A DNA stretch of 38,671 nt from a virus: IMG/VR virus record IMGVR_UViG_3300046810_000225, positions 1 through 38,671 of that record, one strand, 5' to 3'. Position 1 is the stretch's first letter. Each line of letters begins with the position of its first letter. Under the pieces are notes generated by a model. The model saw nothing but the letters and a program-made list of their open reading frames with translations, had not been told where the DNA came from and made no database searches. Both the position numbers and the translations under genes were made by a program. Of this stretch, positions 1,536 to 37,361 are shown piece after piece.

Positions 1536-1927
1536 GCCATCGCCTTTTCTGCCGCTGCGCACGCCTGCGCCAGCAGCCCCACCTCGATCTGCGGCAAGGC
1601 CCGCAAGTACCATGCAAACGCCTGTTTCAGCGCGGCATATTCGGCCGTGGTCAGGTCCAGCAGCTTGGTTGGCCGGGCCGCTGCCTTTCGCAGCATCGCG
1701 TACGCTTTCGTGACCAGGTCATGAAAGGCTTTCGACTTGGTGGCGGCGGCGATGTAGCTGGCAATGATCAGGTGCGTGGTCAGGTGATTAGCGCCCGATC
1801 CGGTGCACTGGCCCCGGTGGGCGGCGTCGAAATGGCACATCAATGGCAGTGCCACCGCGTTCGCATCTTCTTTCCCAACTCTCTGCTTGCAAGCAACAAG
1901 TGCCAGCGGGTTGAGGTGGCGGGTCAT
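1532..1927 (-). CDS. Hypothetical protein, 131 aa
   Basis: I do not recognise a named family. The protein is alanine-rich and mostly helical. Its N-terminal third contains two cysteines and several histidines (CHFDAAHRGQCTGSGANHLT), which could bind a metal. The ATG overlaps the stop of the upstream HTH gene, and its own stop overlaps the methyltransferase start, both as ATGA. It is therefore translated as the second cistron of the early leftward operon. Position between a regulator and a DNA-modifying enzyme suggests an early role, but nothing more specific can be supported. Confidence 0.8.
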   Translation of the reverse strand: MTRHLNPLALVACKQRVGKEDANAVALPLMCHFDAAHRGQCTGSGANHLTTHLIIASYIAAATKSKAFHDLVTKAYAMLRKAAARPTKLLDLTTAEYAALKQAFAWYLRALPQIEVGLLAQACAAAEKAMA

Positions 1928-2100
1928 GCTTTCCCCTTGAAGTAGTCAGCCAGCTTCTTGACCGTCGAAAAGGCCGGCGTGGTGTTGGTGCCCTTGGCGA
2001 TGCGGTACACCGTCATGTAGGACAAGCCCACCTTGCGCGCGATTGACTTGAGGTTGGTGTCGGCCAGCTGGCGCACCACGTATTGCAGATCATCGTCCAT
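1924..2100 (-). CDS. Small HTH DNA-binding protein, 58 aa (candidate phage regulator)
   Basis: A compact helix-turn-helix protein whose core reads LKSIARKVGLSYMTVYRIAKG, followed by a short helix ending at the stop. At 58 residues it is the size of Cro-type repressors and lacks any oligomerisation domain of a CI protein. It is the first gene of the leftward early operon and shares ATGA with the next gene. One copy of the phage's 14-bp palindrome (2109-2122) lies 9 bp before its start, next to a TATAAA -10, so autoregulation is plausible. The ribosome site (AAGGG) is modest. It is one of three encoded candidates for the protein that binds the eight sites; the others are the XRE protein at 9513 and the winged-helix protein at 36512. 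Binding specificity is not shown by the sequence. Confidence 0.85.
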   Translation of the reverse strand: MDDDLQYVVRQLADTNLKSIARKVGLSYMTVYRIAKGTNTTPAFSTVKKLADYFKGKA

Positions 2101-2883: not shown

Positions 2884-2908
2884 CTTGAGCAAGGTCAATT
2901 TCTATACA
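2880..2908 (+). promoter_or_regulatory. Rightward promoter for the annealing-protein operon
   Basis: TTGACT (2880-2885, five of six) and TATACA (2903-2908, four of six) are separated by exactly 17 bp. Operator-like site 2 (2885-2898) fills the spacer, so a bound protein would block RNA polymerase. The leader to the next start codon is about 270 nt. Confidence 0.55.
2885..2898 (+). promoter_or_regulatory. Operator-like site 2 (TTGAGCAAGGTCAA)
   Basis: This copy lies between the -35 and -10 of the promoter at 2880-2908. It matches the late-operon site (TTGCGCAAGATCAA) at 12 of 14 positions. Confidence 0.65.
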
Positions 2909-2942
2909 GAAAAGTAGTAGATTCGCGTTTCTTTATTCCATT

Positions 2943-2956
2943 TTGACGCAAATCAA
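2943..2956 (+). promoter_or_regulatory. Operator-like site 3 (TTGACGCAAATCAA)
   Basis: This copy matches the FNR/Anr half-site pattern TTGAT-N4-ATCAA at 9 of 10 positions and contains a TTGACG -35-like hexamer. It is centred 58 bp from site 2. Confidence 0.65.
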
Positions 2957-2971
2957 TAGCCTGCATGGATT

Positions 2972-2985
2972 TTGATCTGCGTCAA
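2972..2985 (-). promoter_or_regulatory. Operator-like site 4 (TTGACGCAGATCAA on minus strand)
   Basis: This is the inverted partner of site 3, identical at 13 of 14 bases, with centres 29 bp apart. It fits TTGAT-N4-GTCAA when read on the plus strand. Confidence 0.65.
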
Positions 2986-3184
2986 CAATTTTCAAGTTGT
3001 AGCATCGCAATTTCATATGGTTGTGTGACGCAGTCCCGATCCGTACTCTGTGCCTTTATAGGCTTTACGTCTTTCCGACTACAAGCCTTGGGCAAGAACA
3101 GCGCTCAACCAGCCGCGCGGCTTCCAACTTTATGGACGACTCCGCTTTACCTATATGCAGTGACTAACAATAACAGGGGAACAG

Positions 3185-29165: not shown

Positions 29166-30577
29166 ATGAACTCCACTGTCTGGTTGAGCGCGTCGTCGCG
29201 CAGGACGCTGCTATTGTTGATGGCCGACTGGCGCAGCAGGGTGGTGGCCGCGCTGGTGCTATGCAGCGTCCCGGCGTTTCGGGCAATGCTGGCGAGCAGC
29301 GCCGTTACTTGGCCATGGACGCTGGCCGCGCGCATGATCGTGTAGCCGATCACCACCGGTGGCGGGGCCAGCAGGCCTTGGCGGATGGTGGGTGCATAGC
29401 CGGTCAGGGTGAGCGTGCTCGCACTCGGCTGCACGCTCTGGTGGGCGCTGCGGGTGACGGTGGGCGCGAACCCGGTCAAGGTCAGTGCGCCCGGTCCCGG
29501 CACCTTGCTGCTCGATCCGGTCTGGTTCAGGGTCGGCGCAAAGCCGGTGAACGCAAGCGACCCGGCCGATGGTGTTACCGACTGGTTCCCGGTGCGCGCC
29601 ACCGTGGGCGCGAAGCCGGTCAGCGTGAACGCGCCCGCGCTTGGCGTCACGCCTTGGTTGGCAGTGCGGGCCACGCCCGGGGCAAAGCCGGCGAAGGCCA
29701 TGCCTCCCGCGCCCGACGTCACTGTCTGGGTGGTGCTCTGGGTCAGGGTCGGCGCGTAGCCGGTCACGGCCAATGCCCCGGCGTTCGGGGTCAGGCTGGT
29801 GATGGTGCCGCTGGCCGCTTCTGCCACCAGCAGGCGCGGGGCGCTGGCGAACAGCTGCCACGGGTTGGCGCTCAGGCTCGCCACCTCGGCATCGCTCAAG
29901 GTGCGCTTGAAGATCAGCACGATGCTGACGTAGGCCCCCGAGAGCTGCTGGCCCGCCTGGTTGCCGCCGCCGCGCGAGCCGATGGCGAACTGGTCAGTGT
30001 CGTTCGGGAACGATCCCGTCAGCGCGGCGCTGTTCTTCAGGATGCCGTCGACGTACAGCTTGGCAGTGACCTTGTCATAGGTGCCGCACAGGGGCACCGG
30101 GCGACCCCGGTACGGGTCCAAGCCGCCGCCCACGGAAGCCGCCGGCACCAACACCGCATTGCCGCCCGCCAAGCCGCCAGTACCAAACGCGAACTGCTGG
30201 TTGGCGCTGCTGATCGACAGCGAATAGTCCCAGTTCGACTGGACCCGGCCGCACACGAAGTTCGACACGCTGCTGGTGTCGGGAATGAACACTTCCGCGA
30301 ACAGGGTTTGGTTGCTCAGTCCGTTAAAGCTGAGGTCGGGCCGGGTGCCGAAGCTGATATCACCGTTGCCGGCAAACTTGCGCCCGATCCGGCCCGCGAA
30401 CGCTTGATTGGCAGGGCGCGTGCCTTCGGTGCTGCCGGATTTGCCGGTGACGAGGTCGATGTCGCCCGCCGACGCCACCCATGCCAACGCCAGGCTCCTG
30501 GCCAGCGGGTGCGACCAGTCGAGCCGCACCGCCTGCTGCGGCTGCCGGGTGCGGCGGGTGACGAACGGCAGGGGCAT
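29162..30577 (-). CDS. LamG-domain virion surface protein with six 24-residue repeats, 471 aa
   Basis: Residues about 15-245 form a concanavalin-A/LamG-like sandwich (GLSNQTLFAEVFIPDTSS, LCGTYDKVTAKLYVDGIL). They end in the SLSANPWQLF motif that commonly closes such domains in phage proteins. Residues 261-401 are six tandem 24-residue repeats with the core G-x-F/L-x-x-T-G-F/Y-A-P-T. The last 70 residues are helical (VHGQVTALLASIARNAG). It is probably a glycan-binding decoration or side fibre. The repeat number could vary between isolates. The start directly follows the upstream stop (TAAATG) with little ribosome site. Confidence 0.82.
   Translation of the reverse strand: MPLPFVTRRTRQPQQAVRLDWSHPLARSLALAWVASAGDIDLVTGKSGSTEGTRPANQAFAGRIGRKFAGNGDISFGTRPDLSFNGLSNQTLFAEVFIPDTSSVSNFVCGRVQSNWDYSLSISSANQQFAFGTGGLAGGNAVLVPAASVGGGLDPYRGRPVPLCGTYDKVTAKLYVDGILKNSAALTGSFPNDTDQFAIGSRGGGNQAGQQLSGAYVSIVLIFKRTLSDAEVASLSANPWQLFASAPRLLVAEAASGTITSLTPNAGALAVTGYAPTLTQSTTQTVTSGAGGMAFAGFAPGVARTANQGVTPSAGAFTLTGFAPTVARTGNQSVTPSAGSLAFTGFAPTLNQTGSSSKVPGPGALTLTGFAPTVTRSAHQSVQPSASTLTLTGYAPTIRQGLLAPPPVVIGYTIMRAASVHGQVTALLASIARNAGTLHSTSAATTLLRQSAINNSSVLRDDALNQTVEFI
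29375..29797 (-). repeat. Six tandem 72-bp coding repeats
   Basis: The repeats encode units such as TPSAGAFTLTGFAPTVARTG and TPSAGSLAFTGFAPTLNQTG. They are diverged at DNA level but keep a 24-codon period. The unit predicts three short strands plus a Pro turn, so the array is probably a rigid beta-stalk. Confidence 0.85.
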
Positions 30578-32379: not shown

Positions 32380-32531
32380 GCGGTCACCGTGCCGATGATG
32401 GCAACCGCGATGATGATCAGCCACAACGGGATCAGCCAGGCCCATGCCGTGCCGGAATACTGGTCAACTGGGCAATCGCGTCCTTGGCGCGGGCAATCTC
32501 CTGAGCCATTGCAGCATTCGTCGCGCTTCAT
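32376..32531 (-). CDS. Small Cys-rich single-pass membrane protein, 51 aa
   Basis: Four cysteines lie in the first 20 residues (ECCNGSGDCPRQGRDCP), followed by one hydrophobic helix (AWAWLIPLWLIIIAVAIIGT). The ATG overlaps the stop of the HTH/coiled-coil gene. An early membrane peptide of unknown role. Confidence 0.7.
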   Translation of the reverse strand: MKRDECCNGSGDCPRQGRDCPVDQYSGTAWAWLIPLWLIIIAVAIIGTVTA

Positions 32532-32770
32532 GCGCCTCCCTTGGCCTTGGCCTTGAGCTGGTCGATCTGGACGCCCAATTTTGCACGCTTCTGTTCCAGT
32601 TTGGCAATCTCGGCGTGCAGCTCGTGGCGCTCGGCCGCTGCCAGGTTGACCAGTCGCCGGCACTCGGGGTCGCGGCTGATCGTGCTCTTGTCGGCCCCGC
32701 TCAGGCGCGCGGCGTCGGCCGGCTTCCTGCCCTGCCGGATCAGGTCGCGGGCGGCTTGGATTTTGCTCAT
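32528..32770 (-). CDS. Small HTH plus coiled-coil protein, 80 aa
   Basis: Residues 1-35 contain a helix-turn-helix of resolvase/terminase style (ARDLIRQGRKPADAARLSGA, DKSTISRD). The rest is a Lys/Glu/Leu coiled coil (IAKLEQKRAKLGVQIDQLKA). It could be a transcription regulator or, given its location next to the late operon, a late-gene activator. The ATG overlaps the preceding stop. Confidence 0.75.
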   Translation of the reverse strand: MSKIQAARDLIRQGRKPADAARLSGADKSTISRDPECRRLVNLAAAERHELHAEIAKLEQKRAKLGVQIDQLKAKAKGGA

Positions 32771-33353: not shown

Positions 33354-33584
33354 TCAACGACTTTCTGCACTTTGTTGCGTCTTTTGTTGCGCCATCCACC
33401 GCCCCCGCGCCTGCCGCTCGGCCAGCGGCGCGCGGTCGTACGCGATGCAGTACGGGCCATCCCAGCGCACGAACGGCTCCACCGGGCCGCGCTCGCCGTC
33501 GAAGCCGTGGCAGGGCGCGAGGCCGTGGGTGGCCTGCTGGTAGGCGTAGTGGCGGCACTCGCCGCAGGTGGCGCCCCGGCTCAT
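33354..33584 (-). CDS. Four-cysteine small phage protein, 76 aa
   Basis: The N-terminal ATCGECRHYAYQQATHG plus downstream C residues (APCHGF, GPYCIAY) form a C-x2-C...C...C zinc-site pattern. That pattern is common in small phage proteins described only as hypothetical. The ATG overlaps the stop of the PAPS-reductase-like gene, so the two are coupled and may act together. Confidence 0.72.
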   Translation of the reverse strand: MSRGATCGECRHYAYQQATHGLAPCHGFDGERGPVEPFVRWDGPYCIAYDRAPLAERQARGRWMAQQKTQQSAESR

Positions 33585-34336
33585 GCTGAATATTCCTGCT
33601 CGGCCATCTCGCAAAAGAATGAACATGAGGGCAGCTTTTCGTTTCGGCGCGCTTCGCCGGCTGGAAGCGCGCGCAAGGAAAAGCGCTCATTCGTTTTGCG
33701 GTCCAGATGCAGATTTGCGCCGGGGCCGATTTCTTCCTGGACCCGCGCCAATTCCTCGAATTGTTCGGGGAAGTCCTCGCGGATCGTCCGCCAATACCCC
33801 ATGCCGCCCTTGACGCAGCCGATACAGTTGGCATTGTCATAGCCCATGCGGTACATCAGCGGCAATTCAATTCCGGCCCGCAGCACCATGGCCTTGCAGT
33901 CTTCCTTGCCCAGCCCGGCGTCGATGAGCGGCGCAATCATGGGGCGGTCGGGGTTGCGCTCGCGGAAATCGTCGGCGCGGTCCGCCTCCTCTGCGGTAAA
34001 CCCGAACACGATCACATCGCCTGGGCGTTCCAATTGCGAGAGCAGCCGACGCTTGAGGATTTTCGTGCAGGGCGCCCCGCGCGGCCCCTTCATGAACCGC
34101 TCACGTCGGAACACTTCCACGGTGGAGGCGTTGTATTTTTCATCACGCAACACAGTAATTGGTCGGCCAAACCATTGCTCGCATTCCGCAAGAAAGCGGC
34201 GGTTGTCGTCATGCTCTTGTTGAATAAATGCGTTGACGATCAACACTTCATGCGTTGCCGTATATTTTGCAAGCGTCAGCTTCGTCGCCACCGCCGATGC
34301 TGCACCACATGAAAATTGACAGATCATCCGTTCCAA
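33581..34336 (-). CDS. PAPS-reductase-like (PP-loop) protein, 251 aa
   Basis: The family is the adenine-nucleotide alpha-hydrolase/PAPS reductase superfamily. The PP-loop is FSCGAASAVA (8-17), with Cys in place of the second Gly of the usual SGGxxS. C90 (GAPCTK), C171/C174 (NCIGCVKGG) and C238/C242 suggest a possible iron-sulfur or zinc site. Phages often carry such proteins; roles proposed include sulfur transfer and nucleotide chemistry, and none is established here. I keep the TTG at 34336, which has AGGGG at ideal distance; an ATG nine bases later is also possible. Confidence 0.8.
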   Translation of the reverse strand: MERMICQFSCGAASAVATKLTLAKYTATHEVLIVNAFIQQEHDDNRRFLAECEQWFGRPITVLRDEKYNASTVEVFRRERFMKGPRGAPCTKILKRRLLSQLERPGDVIVFGFTAEEADRADDFRERNPDRPMIAPLIDAGLGKEDCKAMVLRAGIELPLMYRMGYDNANCIGCVKGGMGYWRTIREDFPEQFEELARVQEEIGPGANLHLDRKTNERFSLRALPAGEARRNEKLPSCSFFCEMAEQEYSA

Positions 34337-34519: not shown

Positions 34520-34661
34520 GGGTGTCTCCCTTGTTGTGGTGGTAGGTGAAAAACAGCATCAGCCCCAGCCCCAGCGCGCACAGCGCCAGCCCGAAGGCCG
34601 GGTCGAGCACCAGTTCGGCGCTGAGGATGGCAAGGGCGAGCAGGAGCAGGGCGGTACTCAT
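34512..34661 (-). CDS. Two-helix small membrane protein, 49 aa
   Basis: Two hydrophobic helices (ALLLLALAILSAELVL and GLALCALGLGLMLFF) are followed by a polar His-rich tail (TYHHNKGDTHE). The ATG overlaps the DnaC-like stop (ATGA). It is made early with replication proteins, so a role in holding replication at the membrane is conceivable but unsupported. Confidence 0.72.
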   Translation of the reverse strand: MSTALLLLALAILSAELVLDPAFGLALCALGLGLMLFFTYHHNKGDTHE

Positions 34662-35440
34662 TTCGCGCTTCCACGGTGCGAATCCCAATCGAACGTCACC
34701 CACAGCCCGCCCTCGCGCAGCCGGTCGAAGCTGCGGTCGCCAAGGAACTGTTTCATGCCAGCCTTGTTCTGGTTGGTCAGCAGGATCATGGGCATCATGT
34801 CGCGGTAACGTTTGTCGATGATGTCAAACAGCGTGACCTGCTCGGCATCGGTGCCGTATTGCACGCCAACCTCATCGAGAATCAGAAGGCCGAGTGAGGA
34901 CAGCATGTCGAGCACTTCGGTTTCGGTTTTCTCCGCGCCCTTGCGCCAGGTGTCGCGCACCATCCGCACCGCATCAATCGCGGAGGTGTAGAGCGCCGTC
35001 CGGCTTGCCATCACCGCCAGCGCAATCGCAATCGCAAGGTGGCTCTTGCCGGTGCCCGGCAGGCCGGAGAACACGATCACCGTTCCCTTGCGCATGTGCT
35101 CGTCGTAGTTCTGTGCGAACTCCATGGCAATCGCCAACGCCCTTTCCTTGGCGTCGGTATCGGCCACGAAGCTGGCGAAATCCTTGCTGCGGTAGCGGAA
35201 CGGGATGCCGGCACGATTGATGCGCGCTTCCATGCGTTCCTGCTCGCGCCGCGCCACCTGCGCCGCCTCTTCCTCGGCCCGTTTTGCCGACGCTGCGGCC
35301 TCGCATGCCGGACAGCCGCGCCAGTGCGTGTTGCGCATCATCTTGATGCCCATGCTGACGTAATCGCCGTGCTGCTCGCAATGGGCGGGCTTTTCCAGTT
35401 GCTCAATCAAGCCGCACGCGGGTTTAAAACCGTCCGTCAT
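34658..35440 (-). CDS. DnaC-like helicase loader ATPase, 260 aa
   Basis: An AAA+ protein of the DnaC/DnaI type that would load the host replicative helicase. Walker A is GLPGTGKS (126-133) and Walker B is LLILDEVG (185-192). A sensor-like ILLTNQN follows at about 219-225. The N-terminal part has C21, C43 and C46 (CPAC), a likely zinc site, and a charged helix. It overlaps the DUF1376 gene by 17 bp. The pair corresponds to lambda O and P in function. No phage helicase or polymerase is present, so host enzymes are required. Confidence 0.9.
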   Translation of the reverse strand: MTDGFKPACGLIEQLEKPAHCEQHGDYVSMGIKMMRNTHWRGCPACEAAASAKRAEEEAAQVARREQERMEARINRAGIPFRYRSKDFASFVADTDAKERALAIAMEFAQNYDEHMRKGTVIVFSGLPGTGKSHLAIAIALAVMASRTALYTSAIDAVRMVRDTWRKGAEKTETEVLDMLSSLGLLILDEVGVQYGTDAEQVTLFDIIDKRYRDMMPMILLTNQNKAGMKQFLGDRSFDRLREGGLWVTFDWDSHRGSAK

Positions 35441-36215
35441 CGCTTACCCCTTCCTGATAATCCAGTTGATCGAATCCGCTGTGGCGCGATGGCTTGGCAG
35501 GCTGATCCGCGCGCCGTCCAGCCGCTTGGCTGGCCACCCATGCAGCCTCAAATCCCTGCCAGCCACGCGAGCAGCACAACTGCAAGGCGGCTTCCAGCGT
35601 CAAGCCGGCCTTGACCGCTTCGGCGGCAATCTTGTCCATCGCGGTTTTGGTAACAGCTGCCCGCTTCTGCTTGCGCAGTGCCTTGAAGTCGGCAACCACC
35701 TGAGCATCCACTCCGGGGAACAACACAGCATCGCCGCAAGGCGGTGCGCTCGGTTTTTCTTTGGTTACTGGTTTATGGTTATTGGTTATTGGTTCTTGGT
35801 TAGCTTGTGATCCGGTTCCTATCGGGTTCCCGCTGGCAACCGGATAGGAACCCACGGATAACCCGCTGGGTTTTTCTGGGTTATTTTTAACTGGCCTGCC
35901 GCCTTTGCCGCCGTTGACTTTGGCGATCACGGCCTTCTTGCGGTAGTCGGCAATCTCGACGTCGCAGCGCTCGTTGCGATAGCCATCTTCGGCCAGCGTG
36001 AACTTGAGCAACAGAATCGAGGCGACTATCTCGCGGTCACCATCCCGACGCGCGCCGACCATCGCACAAATCTTGTCGAGGTTATCGGGAAACGGCCCTT
36101 CGGTGTCGTAATACACGTCGAGCATGTCGCGGTATATCCAGCGCTCCTGGGCCGTCATGTTGAACGTCCCAGAGCGGAAATCACCGATATGGAAAGGGTA
36201 GTAGTTCACCGGCAA
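35424..36215 (-). CDS. DUF1376 replication initiation protein, 263 aa
   Basis: The first about 90 residues are the DUF1376 domain (VNYYPFHIGDFRSGTFNMTA, RWIYRDMLDVYYDTEGPFPD), found at the start of phage replication initiators. A Pro/Asn-rich linker (NPIGTGSQANQEPITNNHKP) joins a C-terminal helical part (LTLEAALQLCCSRGWQGFEA). That part ends near the DnaC gene and is a likely interaction region. The start is non-ATG, either TTG at 36215 or GTG at 36209, with a poor ribosome site and a potential hairpin over it. Translation is probably regulated (see 36208-36250). The origin may lie in the linker-coding region, which contains repeated TTATTGGTT-like sequence at 35760-35805. Confidence 0.87.
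   Translation of the reverse strand: MPVNYYPFHIGDFRSGTFNMTAQERWIYRDMLDVYYDTEGPFPDNLDKICAMVGARRDGDREIVASILLLKFTLAEDGYRNERCDVEIADYRKKAVIAKVNGGKGGRPVKNNPEKPSGLSVGSYPVASGNPIGTGSQANQEPITNNHKPVTKEKPSAPPCGDAVLFPGVDAQVVADFKALRKQKRAAVTKTAMDKIAAEAVKAGLTLEAALQLCCSRGWQGFEAAWVASQAAGRRADQPAKPSRHSGFDQLDYQEGVSDDGRF
35757..35806. repeat. AT-rich GGTTATTGGTT-type repeats inside the DUF1376 gene (possible origin)
   Basis: The linker-coding segment contains several near-copies of GGTTAYTGGTTT / GGTTATTGGTTATTGGTTC in an otherwise GC-rich genome. In lambda-type phages the origin lies inside the initiator gene in a comparable linker. Identification as an origin is by analogy only. Confidence 0.4.
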
Positions 36216-36250
36216 AGCACTTTCTGAAGAGGCCGGTTAGTAAGACCGGC
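36208..36250 (-). promoter_or_regulatory. Possible translational attenuator over the DUF1376 start
   Basis: On the mRNA three complementary hexamers occur in order: GCCGGT (36250-36245), ACCGGC (36237-36232) and GCCGGT (36213-36208). Arm 2 can pair with arm 1 (7-base loop) or with arm 3, which overlaps the TTG/GTG start codons. The stop codon of a 30-codon leader frame (36237-36239) falls in the arm 1/arm 2 hairpin. The two folds are mutually exclusive. Confidence 0.4.
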
Positions 36251-36329
36251 AGGATTCACGCCCGAACGGAAGCACAGGCATGGCCCATGTCGCTTCAGAA
36301 AATGCTTTGGATAGTTGGTCATTGCGCAT
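36237..36329 (-). CDS. Possible leader peptide, 30 aa
   Basis: A 30-codon frame (MRNDQLSKAF start, RESCRSY end) lies between the operator region and the DUF1376 gene and ends inside the attenuator hairpin. The same frame is open back to an ATG at 36425. The ribosome site is poor (ACGGA touching the ATG), so translation is uncertain. The rest of the 36216-36511 gap holds the operators and a terminator. Confidence 0.3.
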   Translation of the reverse strand: MRNDQLSKAFSEATWAMPVLPFGRESCRSY

Positions 36330-36382
36330 TCCGTTTGTAGGTGTCGGATTACTAGCCCGACAAATCAATTGTCCGCTGTAAA

Positions 36383-36396
36383 TTGATTTTCGACAA
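36383..36396 (-). promoter_or_regulatory. Operator-like site 6 (TTGTCGAAAATCAA on minus strand)
   Basis: This is the third copy of the 14-bp motif in the replication control region, centred 22 bp from site 7. A further half-palindrome GACAAATCAATTGTC lies at 36359-36373. Confidence 0.5.
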
Positions 36397-36404
36397 ATAC
36401 AAGA

Positions 36405-36418
36405 TTGGTCTAAATCAA
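36405..36418 (+). promoter_or_regulatory. Operator-like site 7 (TTGGTCTAAATCAA)
   Basis: The middle copy, matching the invariant TTG, A8 and TCAA positions. Its centre is 28 bp from site 8. Confidence 0.55.
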
Positions 36419-36432
36419 TACTCATTTATAGC

Positions 36433-36446
36433 TTGATCTATGTCAA
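36433..36446 (-). promoter_or_regulatory. Operator-like site 8 / -35 of the replication promoter (TTGACATAGATCAA on minus strand)
   Basis: The first six bases on the minus strand are TTGACA, a perfect -35. A TATAAA (36425-36430) follows only 10 bp later, and a weaker GAGTAT stands at 17 bp. A bound protein would cover the -35. It matches TTGAT-N4-ATCAA at 9 of 10 positions. Confidence 0.6.
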
Positions 36447-36465: not shown

Positions 36466-36487
36466 AAAAAAGCCACCCGAAGGTGGC
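36466..36487 (-). terminator. Intrinsic terminator of the first leftward operon
   Basis: GCCACC-TTCG-GGTGGC, a 6-bp stem with a UUCG tetraloop, is followed on the minus strand by six T residues. It lies about 25 bp after the stop of the winged-helix gene and just before the replication promoter. Confidence 0.9.
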
Positions 36488-36511
36488 CTATGCTTTTCTG
36501 GTGTGATAGCG

Positions 36512-36856
36512 CTACAAGCCGAGCGCCGCCAGCCATGTCTGCGCCGGAATCTGCGGCTGCTCCCAGCTCTGCACGATGATGCGCTTCGGCAGGCCGCCCC
36601 CGTCGCGCAGCGAGTCGTCCATGCCGAGCGTCCACATGCTGCCGCGCACGCCCGGTTCCTTGCGGCCGATCACCAGCCCGTCGGCGTTCAGGCGCGCCAC
36701 CGTCATCCGCACCAGCGGCAGCGGAATGTCCAGCACGGCGGCAATCTCGGTGGCGCGCTGGTTGGGCCGGGCCTCGATGTAGGCCAGCACCTTGTTGCGG
36801 ATGGTTTGCTCGGTGGCGGGCGGCACGAAGCCGGGGACAGGGTATAAATGCGTCAT
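36512..36856 (-). CDS. Winged-helix DNA-binding protein, 114 aa (candidate regulator)
   Basis: Residues about 20-70 are a winged helix-turn-helix (RNKVLAYIEARPNQRATEIA, VLDIPLPLVRMTVARLNADG, wing LVIGRKEPG). The gene is last in the first leftward operon and stands directly next to the three operator-like sites and the terminator. The C-terminus QTWLAALGL resembles the QNLFSALGL end of the neighbouring protein. AAAGGAG precedes the ATG. It is a plausible regulator of the replication promoter. Confidence 0.78.
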   Translation of the reverse strand: MTHLYPVPGFVPPATEQTIRNKVLAYIEARPNQRATEIAAVLDIPLPLVRMTVARLNADGLVIGRKEPGVRGSMWTLGMDDSLRDGGGLPKRIIVQSWEQPQIPAQTWLAALGL

Positions 36857-36866
36857 GTGTGCTCCT

Positions 36867-37361
36867 TTACAGTCCCAGTGCCGAAAACAGGTTCTGCGGC
36901 GCAATCTTTGGCTTGCGCCACTTGGACGGCGGCACATGCACCACCACCGGGCCGCCGTCGACCTTCTTGGCCACGCGGCGGTCCTCGGCCTGCCGGTTGC
37001 GGCGGGTGGCGCTCAGCACCCGGTCGGGCTTGTCGCCCAGCGCGTACACCGGCTGCCAACGCCCCAGCCCGTTGACCGGCGGCTCATGGCCGGCCACGTA
37101 CACCAAGCGTTCTGCGCGCAGGCGCGGCAAGTACTTGAGGATGGTGACGCCGATAAAGCCGGTGACCACCTCCAGCTGGCGCCGGGTGCCCGGCATGGCC
37201 GCCAGAATCAGTGCCTTGGTGTCGGCGCTGCTCTTGGCCAGCGGCGCGTTGTAGTTGCGGCGCCAGTCCTGGTAGTGACCCTGGCACATGCCGCGCGCCA
37301 GCGTTTTCTTGCCACAGGTGCCAATCTTGCAGATCGGGTGCAGGTGCGCGCGCTTGCTCAT
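36867..37361 (-). CDS. Zinc-finger plus winged-helix protein, 164 aa
   Basis: The N-terminus has CKIGTCGKKTLARGMCQGHY, a C-x4-C-x8-C-x2-H zinc motif often seen in phage DNA-binding proteins. A winged-helix region follows (ALILAAMPGTRRQLEVVTGF, YLPRLRAERLVYVAG), then a basic linker and the C-terminal QNLFSALGL. It overlaps the previous stop by ATGA and has AAGGAG upstream. It is probably paralogous in part to the 114-aa protein. Confidence 0.78.
   Translation of the reverse strand: MSKRAHLHPICKIGTCGKKTLARGMCQGHYQDWRRNYNAPLAKSSADTKALILAAMPGTRRQLEVVTGFIGVTILKYLPRLRAERLVYVAGHEPPVNGLGRWQPVYALGDKPDRVLSATRRNRQAEDRRVAKKVDGGPVVVHVPPSKWRKPKIAPQNLFSALGL

Follow-up and report, generated by a model that had tools for sequence, protein, structure and literature searches.

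The locus raises the question of why a set of related dyads stands in front of the replication genes of a phage and again at its other early operon, and of which protein reads them. The window analysed, IMG/VR record IMGVR_UViG_3300046810_000225 at its full length of 38,671 nucleotides, begins and ends with the same 127 bases (a 127-bp terminal repeat), and was thus treated as an apparently circular, complete phage contig; no integrase was identified among the scanned proteins, a subset of its ORFs. The leftward genes begin at a small HTH gene (2100) and continue over the contig ends as far as a wHTH gene (36856-36512), after which come an intrinsic terminator (36489-36470), the dyads of set B, a leader, and the DUF1376 and DnaC genes, so that the dyads do precede the replication genes as the preliminary description had claimed. 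On the rightward side, cluster A lies upstream of ORF 3185 and of the gene for the Sak annealing protein; for ORF 2542, the genome collection contained no relative. Three relatives were compared, G002 (IMGVR_UViG_3300046558_000145), G017 (IMGVR_UViG_3300046492_000179) and G013 (IMGVR_UViG_3300047445_000182), the last revealed by a tandem-box scan of IMG/VR in which, among the matches listed, many resemble coding repeats, together with two incomplete contigs, G016 and G018. The features at the replication promoter, in the direction of transcription, are as follows.

36470..36489, minus strand: intrinsic terminator of the upstream leftward genes; stem sequence differs in G002, G013 and G017, pairing kept
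36433..36446, minus strand: box B1, TTGACATAGATCAA, an exact TTGAYNNNNRTCAA, at about -78.5 from the putative start
36405..36418, minus strand: box B2, TTGATTTAGACCAA, one mismatch, at about -50.5
36383..36396, minus strand: box B3, TTGTCGAAAATCAA, at about -28.5; its left half is the putative -35
36391..36396, minus strand: putative -35, TTGTCG, a candidate in four phages, matched by TTGCGT in G018
36368..36373, minus strand: putative -10, GACAAT (GAGAAT in G018), overlapping the reported palindrome
36359..36373, no strand: reported palindrome, GACAAATCAATTGTC, broken in G017 (CACAATTGATTTGTC)
36213..36361, minus strand: structured RNA leader of the replication transcript, -57.9 kcal/mol, z -5.2
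35424..36209, minus strand: DUF1376 replication protein, first gene past the promoter
34658..35440, minus strand: DnaC-like helicase loader

Set B is a real, conserved and promoter-linked feature. It consists of three dyads fitting TTGAY-N4-RTCAA, with the plus-strand letters TTGATCTATGTCAA (36433-36446), TTGGTCTAAATCAA (36405-36418) and TTGATTTTCGACAA (36383-36396), and their centres are 28 and 22 bp apart, exactly as first reported. Box B1 is kept in G013 and G017, and with one spacer change in G002, while B2 reads CTGATTTAGATCAA in G013 and G017, with its single mismatch on the opposite side; both the 28-bp distance from B1 to B2 and the 22-bp distance from B2 to B3 hold in four of the four phages. 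The three relatives thus carry the set at identical spacing while the flanking genes have been exchanged, and in G002 the operator block is nearly unchanged where the replication genes, the upstream genes and the terminator stem all differ. Across the box alignment, variable positions number 4 of 60 in the half-sites, 10 of 24 in the spacers and 12 of 37 in the linkers (the P values for these counts assume independent columns, and these are related phages), and a spacer can change with its half-sites intact, e.g. TTGACGCAAATCAA vs TTGACTCATATCAA at cluster A. Conserved half-sites combined with changing spacers are what one expects of a protein-bound dyad.

Chance fails as an explanation of the dyads. 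The window contains 17 matches to TTGATNNNNATCAA with two mismatches or fewer, against 6.5 expected and a maximum of 14 in 100 shuffles, and the genome has three copies of the exact TTGAYNNNNRTCAA, all within clusters A and B, against 0.13 expected. Simulated genomes never produced three sites with at most one mismatch within about 104 bp, and two in only 6 of 400 runs; shuffling each block never gave three sites. Moreover, among 60 dyad permutations of the half-site, TTGAY had the most exact matches.

The counterpart at the rightward operon is cluster A, with three sites in the window (2885-2985); a weaker additional box lies at 2109.

2885..2898, plus strand: box A1, TTGAGCAAGGTCAA, in this phage only
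2943..2956, plus strand: box A2, TTGACGCAAATCAA; the G013 counterpart is TTGACTCATATCAA
2972..2985, plus strand: box A3, TTGATCTGCGTCAA, 29 bp from A2; the G013 counterpart is TTGATCTAGGTCAA

Both clusters are retained in G013 and G017, with the 28/22 spacing at B and 29 bp at A, but cluster A has two sites there, since site 2885 lies within a stretch of about 22 bp that these phages lack. The earlier statement of three sites at each of two early promoters is therefore right for B in four phages and for A in the window, and has to be relaxed for A elsewhere. G016 and G018 have one A-type box each, behind the same ORF. The top weight-matrix candidates for the A promoter also put a box on the -35 or within the spacer; the core promoter at A is less certain than at B, and it is not conserved. 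The A and B leaders are no more similar to each other than shuffles.

How the boxes sit on the promoter is clearest at B. A simple promoter scan found nothing, and a weight-matrix scan gave the candidate TTGTCG-17-GACAAT, common to the four phages, with TTGTCT-17-CACAAT as its form in G017. Transcription would start at about 36361, which coincides with the beginning of the invariant leader hairpin, and the boxes would then be centred at about -28.5, -50.5 and -78.5, a layout that seems repressor-like because B3 covers the -35. In the diverged G018, the sequence departs from the others just past the same terminator, B1-B3 are absent, and in their place are two boxes 22 bp apart, TTGCGCAAGATCAA and TTGCGTTCCGTCAA, with altered left halves TTGCG, the last of which supplies the -35 of TTGCGT-17-GAGAAT. 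The proximal box thus sits on the -35 both in the window and in G018. The perfect -35 hexamer TTGACA that had been noticed in the outermost copy does exist (minus strand, 36446-36441), but it was rejected as the main promoter since its -10 partner is GAGTAT in the window and G002 and CAGTTC in G013 and G017. Likewise, the palindrome is present as described, but a role as a fourth operator was discarded because it is broken in G017, and the sequence probably combines the -10 with the 5′ strand of a hairpin in the RNA.

Judged by its letters, TTGAY-N4-RTCAA is the FNR/ANR consensus, an identity that the preliminary description missed; three sites are exact and several have one mismatch, far above chance. 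We favour, at somewhat less than even odds, a host regulator of the CRP/FNR family (Fnr/Anr type) as the reader of the boxes. According to this hypothesis, the B sites would be the operators of the leftward replication promoter TTGTCG-17-GACAAT, and since B3 lies over the -35 and the spacer, with the other two boxes 22 and 50 bp upstream, their occupation would block RNA polymerase; cluster A, their mirror at 2885-2985, would impose the same block on the other early operon. An Fnr/Anr-type reader from the host would couple early transcription of the phage to oxygen shortage or a related redox signal. The wider proposal is slightly more tentative, namely that phages of Oxalobacteraceae-like hosts may have both early promoters wired to host Fnr, so that replication is held back or released by oxygen or redox without a repressor of their own.

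Several findings point to the host. No Crp-type HTH or Crp/Fnr protein was detected in the phages, and the HTH and wHTH genes vary between phages while the boxes are constant, which we count for the host reading. Relatives of the portal protein were found in Janthinobacterium genomes, which also encode several Crp/Fnr proteins, some with the E..SR motif, and one Janthinobacterium ccoN promoter holds TTGACACAGATCAAGC, which matches box B1 of G002 at all 16 nt; this Janthinobacterium is likely a relative of the host. The host group would be Oxalobacteraceae or other Burkholderiales, as judged entirely from distant prophage relatives whose own regions carry no boxes. Herbaspirillum we take to belong to the same family as Janthinobacterium. 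The motif of Herbaspirillum Fnr3 is relaxed at positions 1 and 14, with C/G and C/T preferred at positions 6-7 (PMC5934665), and the phage boxes, in the orientation chosen with TTGAT on the left, favour C and T at positions 6-7 and are relaxed at positions 1 and 14, as Fnr3 is. In putative host genomes, the box occurs 233 and 125 times, vs 3 and 4 times for the reversed pattern, counts that were set aside as proof because most of the sampled matches lie within coding sequence. None of the B boxes would lie at a usual activating position of Fnr, near -41.5 or -61.5, and the positions deduced above would allow only repression by Fnr. The match to FNR is also weakened by the fact that a dyad sharing the -35 tends to resemble TTGAC..GTCAA. 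Two more points count against a host reader, the altered left halves TTGCG in G018 and the perfect co-occurrence of ORF 32528 with the B set.

That last point brings forward proteins of the phage itself, for which there are three candidates.

32528..32770, minus strand: 80-aa protein, HTH plus long helix, the best phage-coded candidate reader; co-occurs with the B set
36512..36856, minus strand: wHTH protein encoded upstream of the terminator, not favoured as reader
1924..2100, minus strand: 58-aa HTH of Cro/C1 type in the divergent position, where the relatives encode other HTH proteins

A dimeric regulator encoded by the phage, Cro-like or an immunity repressor, might shut off both early operons, and we regard this as a realistic possibility that falls short of an even chance. 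An arrangement with sites over the -35 at each of the two early operons is usual for phage repressors, and ORF 32528-32770 lies downstream of the same promoter, so it would be autoregulatory. Its product is predicted to have an HTH head on a long helix (pLDDT 93), although the predicted structure has no significant structural match, and it is 96-99% identical in all four B-bearing phages, with no other relative found in IMG/VR. This co-occurrence may reflect shared descent, other small genes being equally conserved. In G018, the left halves of both boxes change together and ORF 32528 is not detectable; against this, G016 and G018 have single A-type boxes without a detected ORF 32528, both contigs being incomplete. 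A phage regulator also leaves the coincidence with the FNR consensus to be explained. The co-occurrence of ORF 32528 with the boxes and the resemblance of -35-sharing dyads to TTGAC..GTCAA keep this rival close, and host Fnr and a phage regulator are almost equally likely.

The two other HTH proteins are very improbable readers. Both are predicted to bind DNA, and all phages with a B site have a wHTH gene ahead of it, but their recognition regions are strongly different among phages that share the boxes, and the wHTH genes of G018 are nearly those of G002, yet B1-B3 are absent there; uncoupled from the boxes across relatives, both were rejected. Still more remote is the idea of a replication origin with these repeats as its iterons, to which the initiator encoded downstream would bind. 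The boxes directly precede replication genes, but in G002 different replication genes follow the same boxes, the cluster A boxes precede non-initiator genes, and relatives of DUF1376 at about 55% identity are without boxes. It was the presence of identical boxes upstream of different replication genes that led us to reject iterons. As a separate observation, the wHTH proteins (36512-36856, 36867-37361 and relatives) have in common a C-terminal tail resembling QxW.xAL.L, which each phage carries once or twice and which is possibly an interaction motif.

The likeness to lambda OL/OR that had been suggested holds for the layout, in that sets of related dyads with a common motif stand at two early promoters and overlap promoter elements, an overlap that is clear only at B, and conservation across phages, together with the site lying over the -35, supports their role as operators. 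It does not extend to the components. No CI-like gene is visible among the scanned proteins (a subset of ORFs), as had been reported, the only HTH of that kind being the 58-aa protein, which is not conserved with the boxes; no CI/Cro pair was identified, and spacing, motif and number of sites differ, cluster A having two sites in relatives. With FNR/ANR boxes (Herbaspirillum Fnr1/Fnr3, PMC5934665; ccoN promoters), the phage dyads share all ten specified positions and, in G002, the 16-mer of the Janthinobacterium ccoN promoter, but here two or three boxes stand together at an early promoter of a phage, and the proximal one covers the -35 instead of occupying an activating position. A further comparison is with Citrobacter rodentium, where the cas3 promoter is activated by Fnr, which switches on CRISPR-Cas defence in anoxia (PMC12669028). 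There, as would be the case here, oxygen sensing by Fnr is tied to the conflict between phage and host, but in C. rodentium the Fnr site is on a host defence gene and here it would be on a phage promoter. If host Fnr does read the boxes, phage early genes would respond directly to oxygen, a counterpart to that Fnr-driven defence (PMC12669028); the part of the literature that our search covered did not describe Fnr sites at early promoters of phages. Should the reader be a phage protein, the analysis would still have brought out a compact regulatory circuit of two promoters, together with its likely regulator.

Early transcription in this phage group may be controlled a second time in the leader. 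The 149-nt replication leader folds into a hairpin at its 5′ end and a 17-bp stem, which closes immediately ahead of the start codon, and some of the base pairs differ in both partners or have been inserted as pairs in the relatives (covarying, co-inserted); Rfam gave no match anywhere in the window, leader included. A hairpin also occurs in the A leader, at about 3050-3095 (plus strand); to judge from two folds, the changes between the window and G017 appear compensatory in all three segments of its stem. In G018, a strong long stem followed by eight T (L370 4745-4835, minus strand) lies between the promoter and the replication genes, a terminator-like structure, as if transcription needed antitermination.

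Farther along the window, the genes downstream of DnaC include one for a PAPS-reductase-like protein (phrog_424, 33581-34336), and the structural-gene region has an internal repeat of about 70% identity (29388-29566 and 29604-29782), seen in self-matches of the relatives. Tandem TTGAY-N4-RTCAA boxes 31 bp apart occur in other phage contigs as well (L217 5370-5414; L301 406-450), upstream of a TATAAT-like -10 and at roughly -60 and -91, near the positions usual for class I activation by Fnr/CRP.
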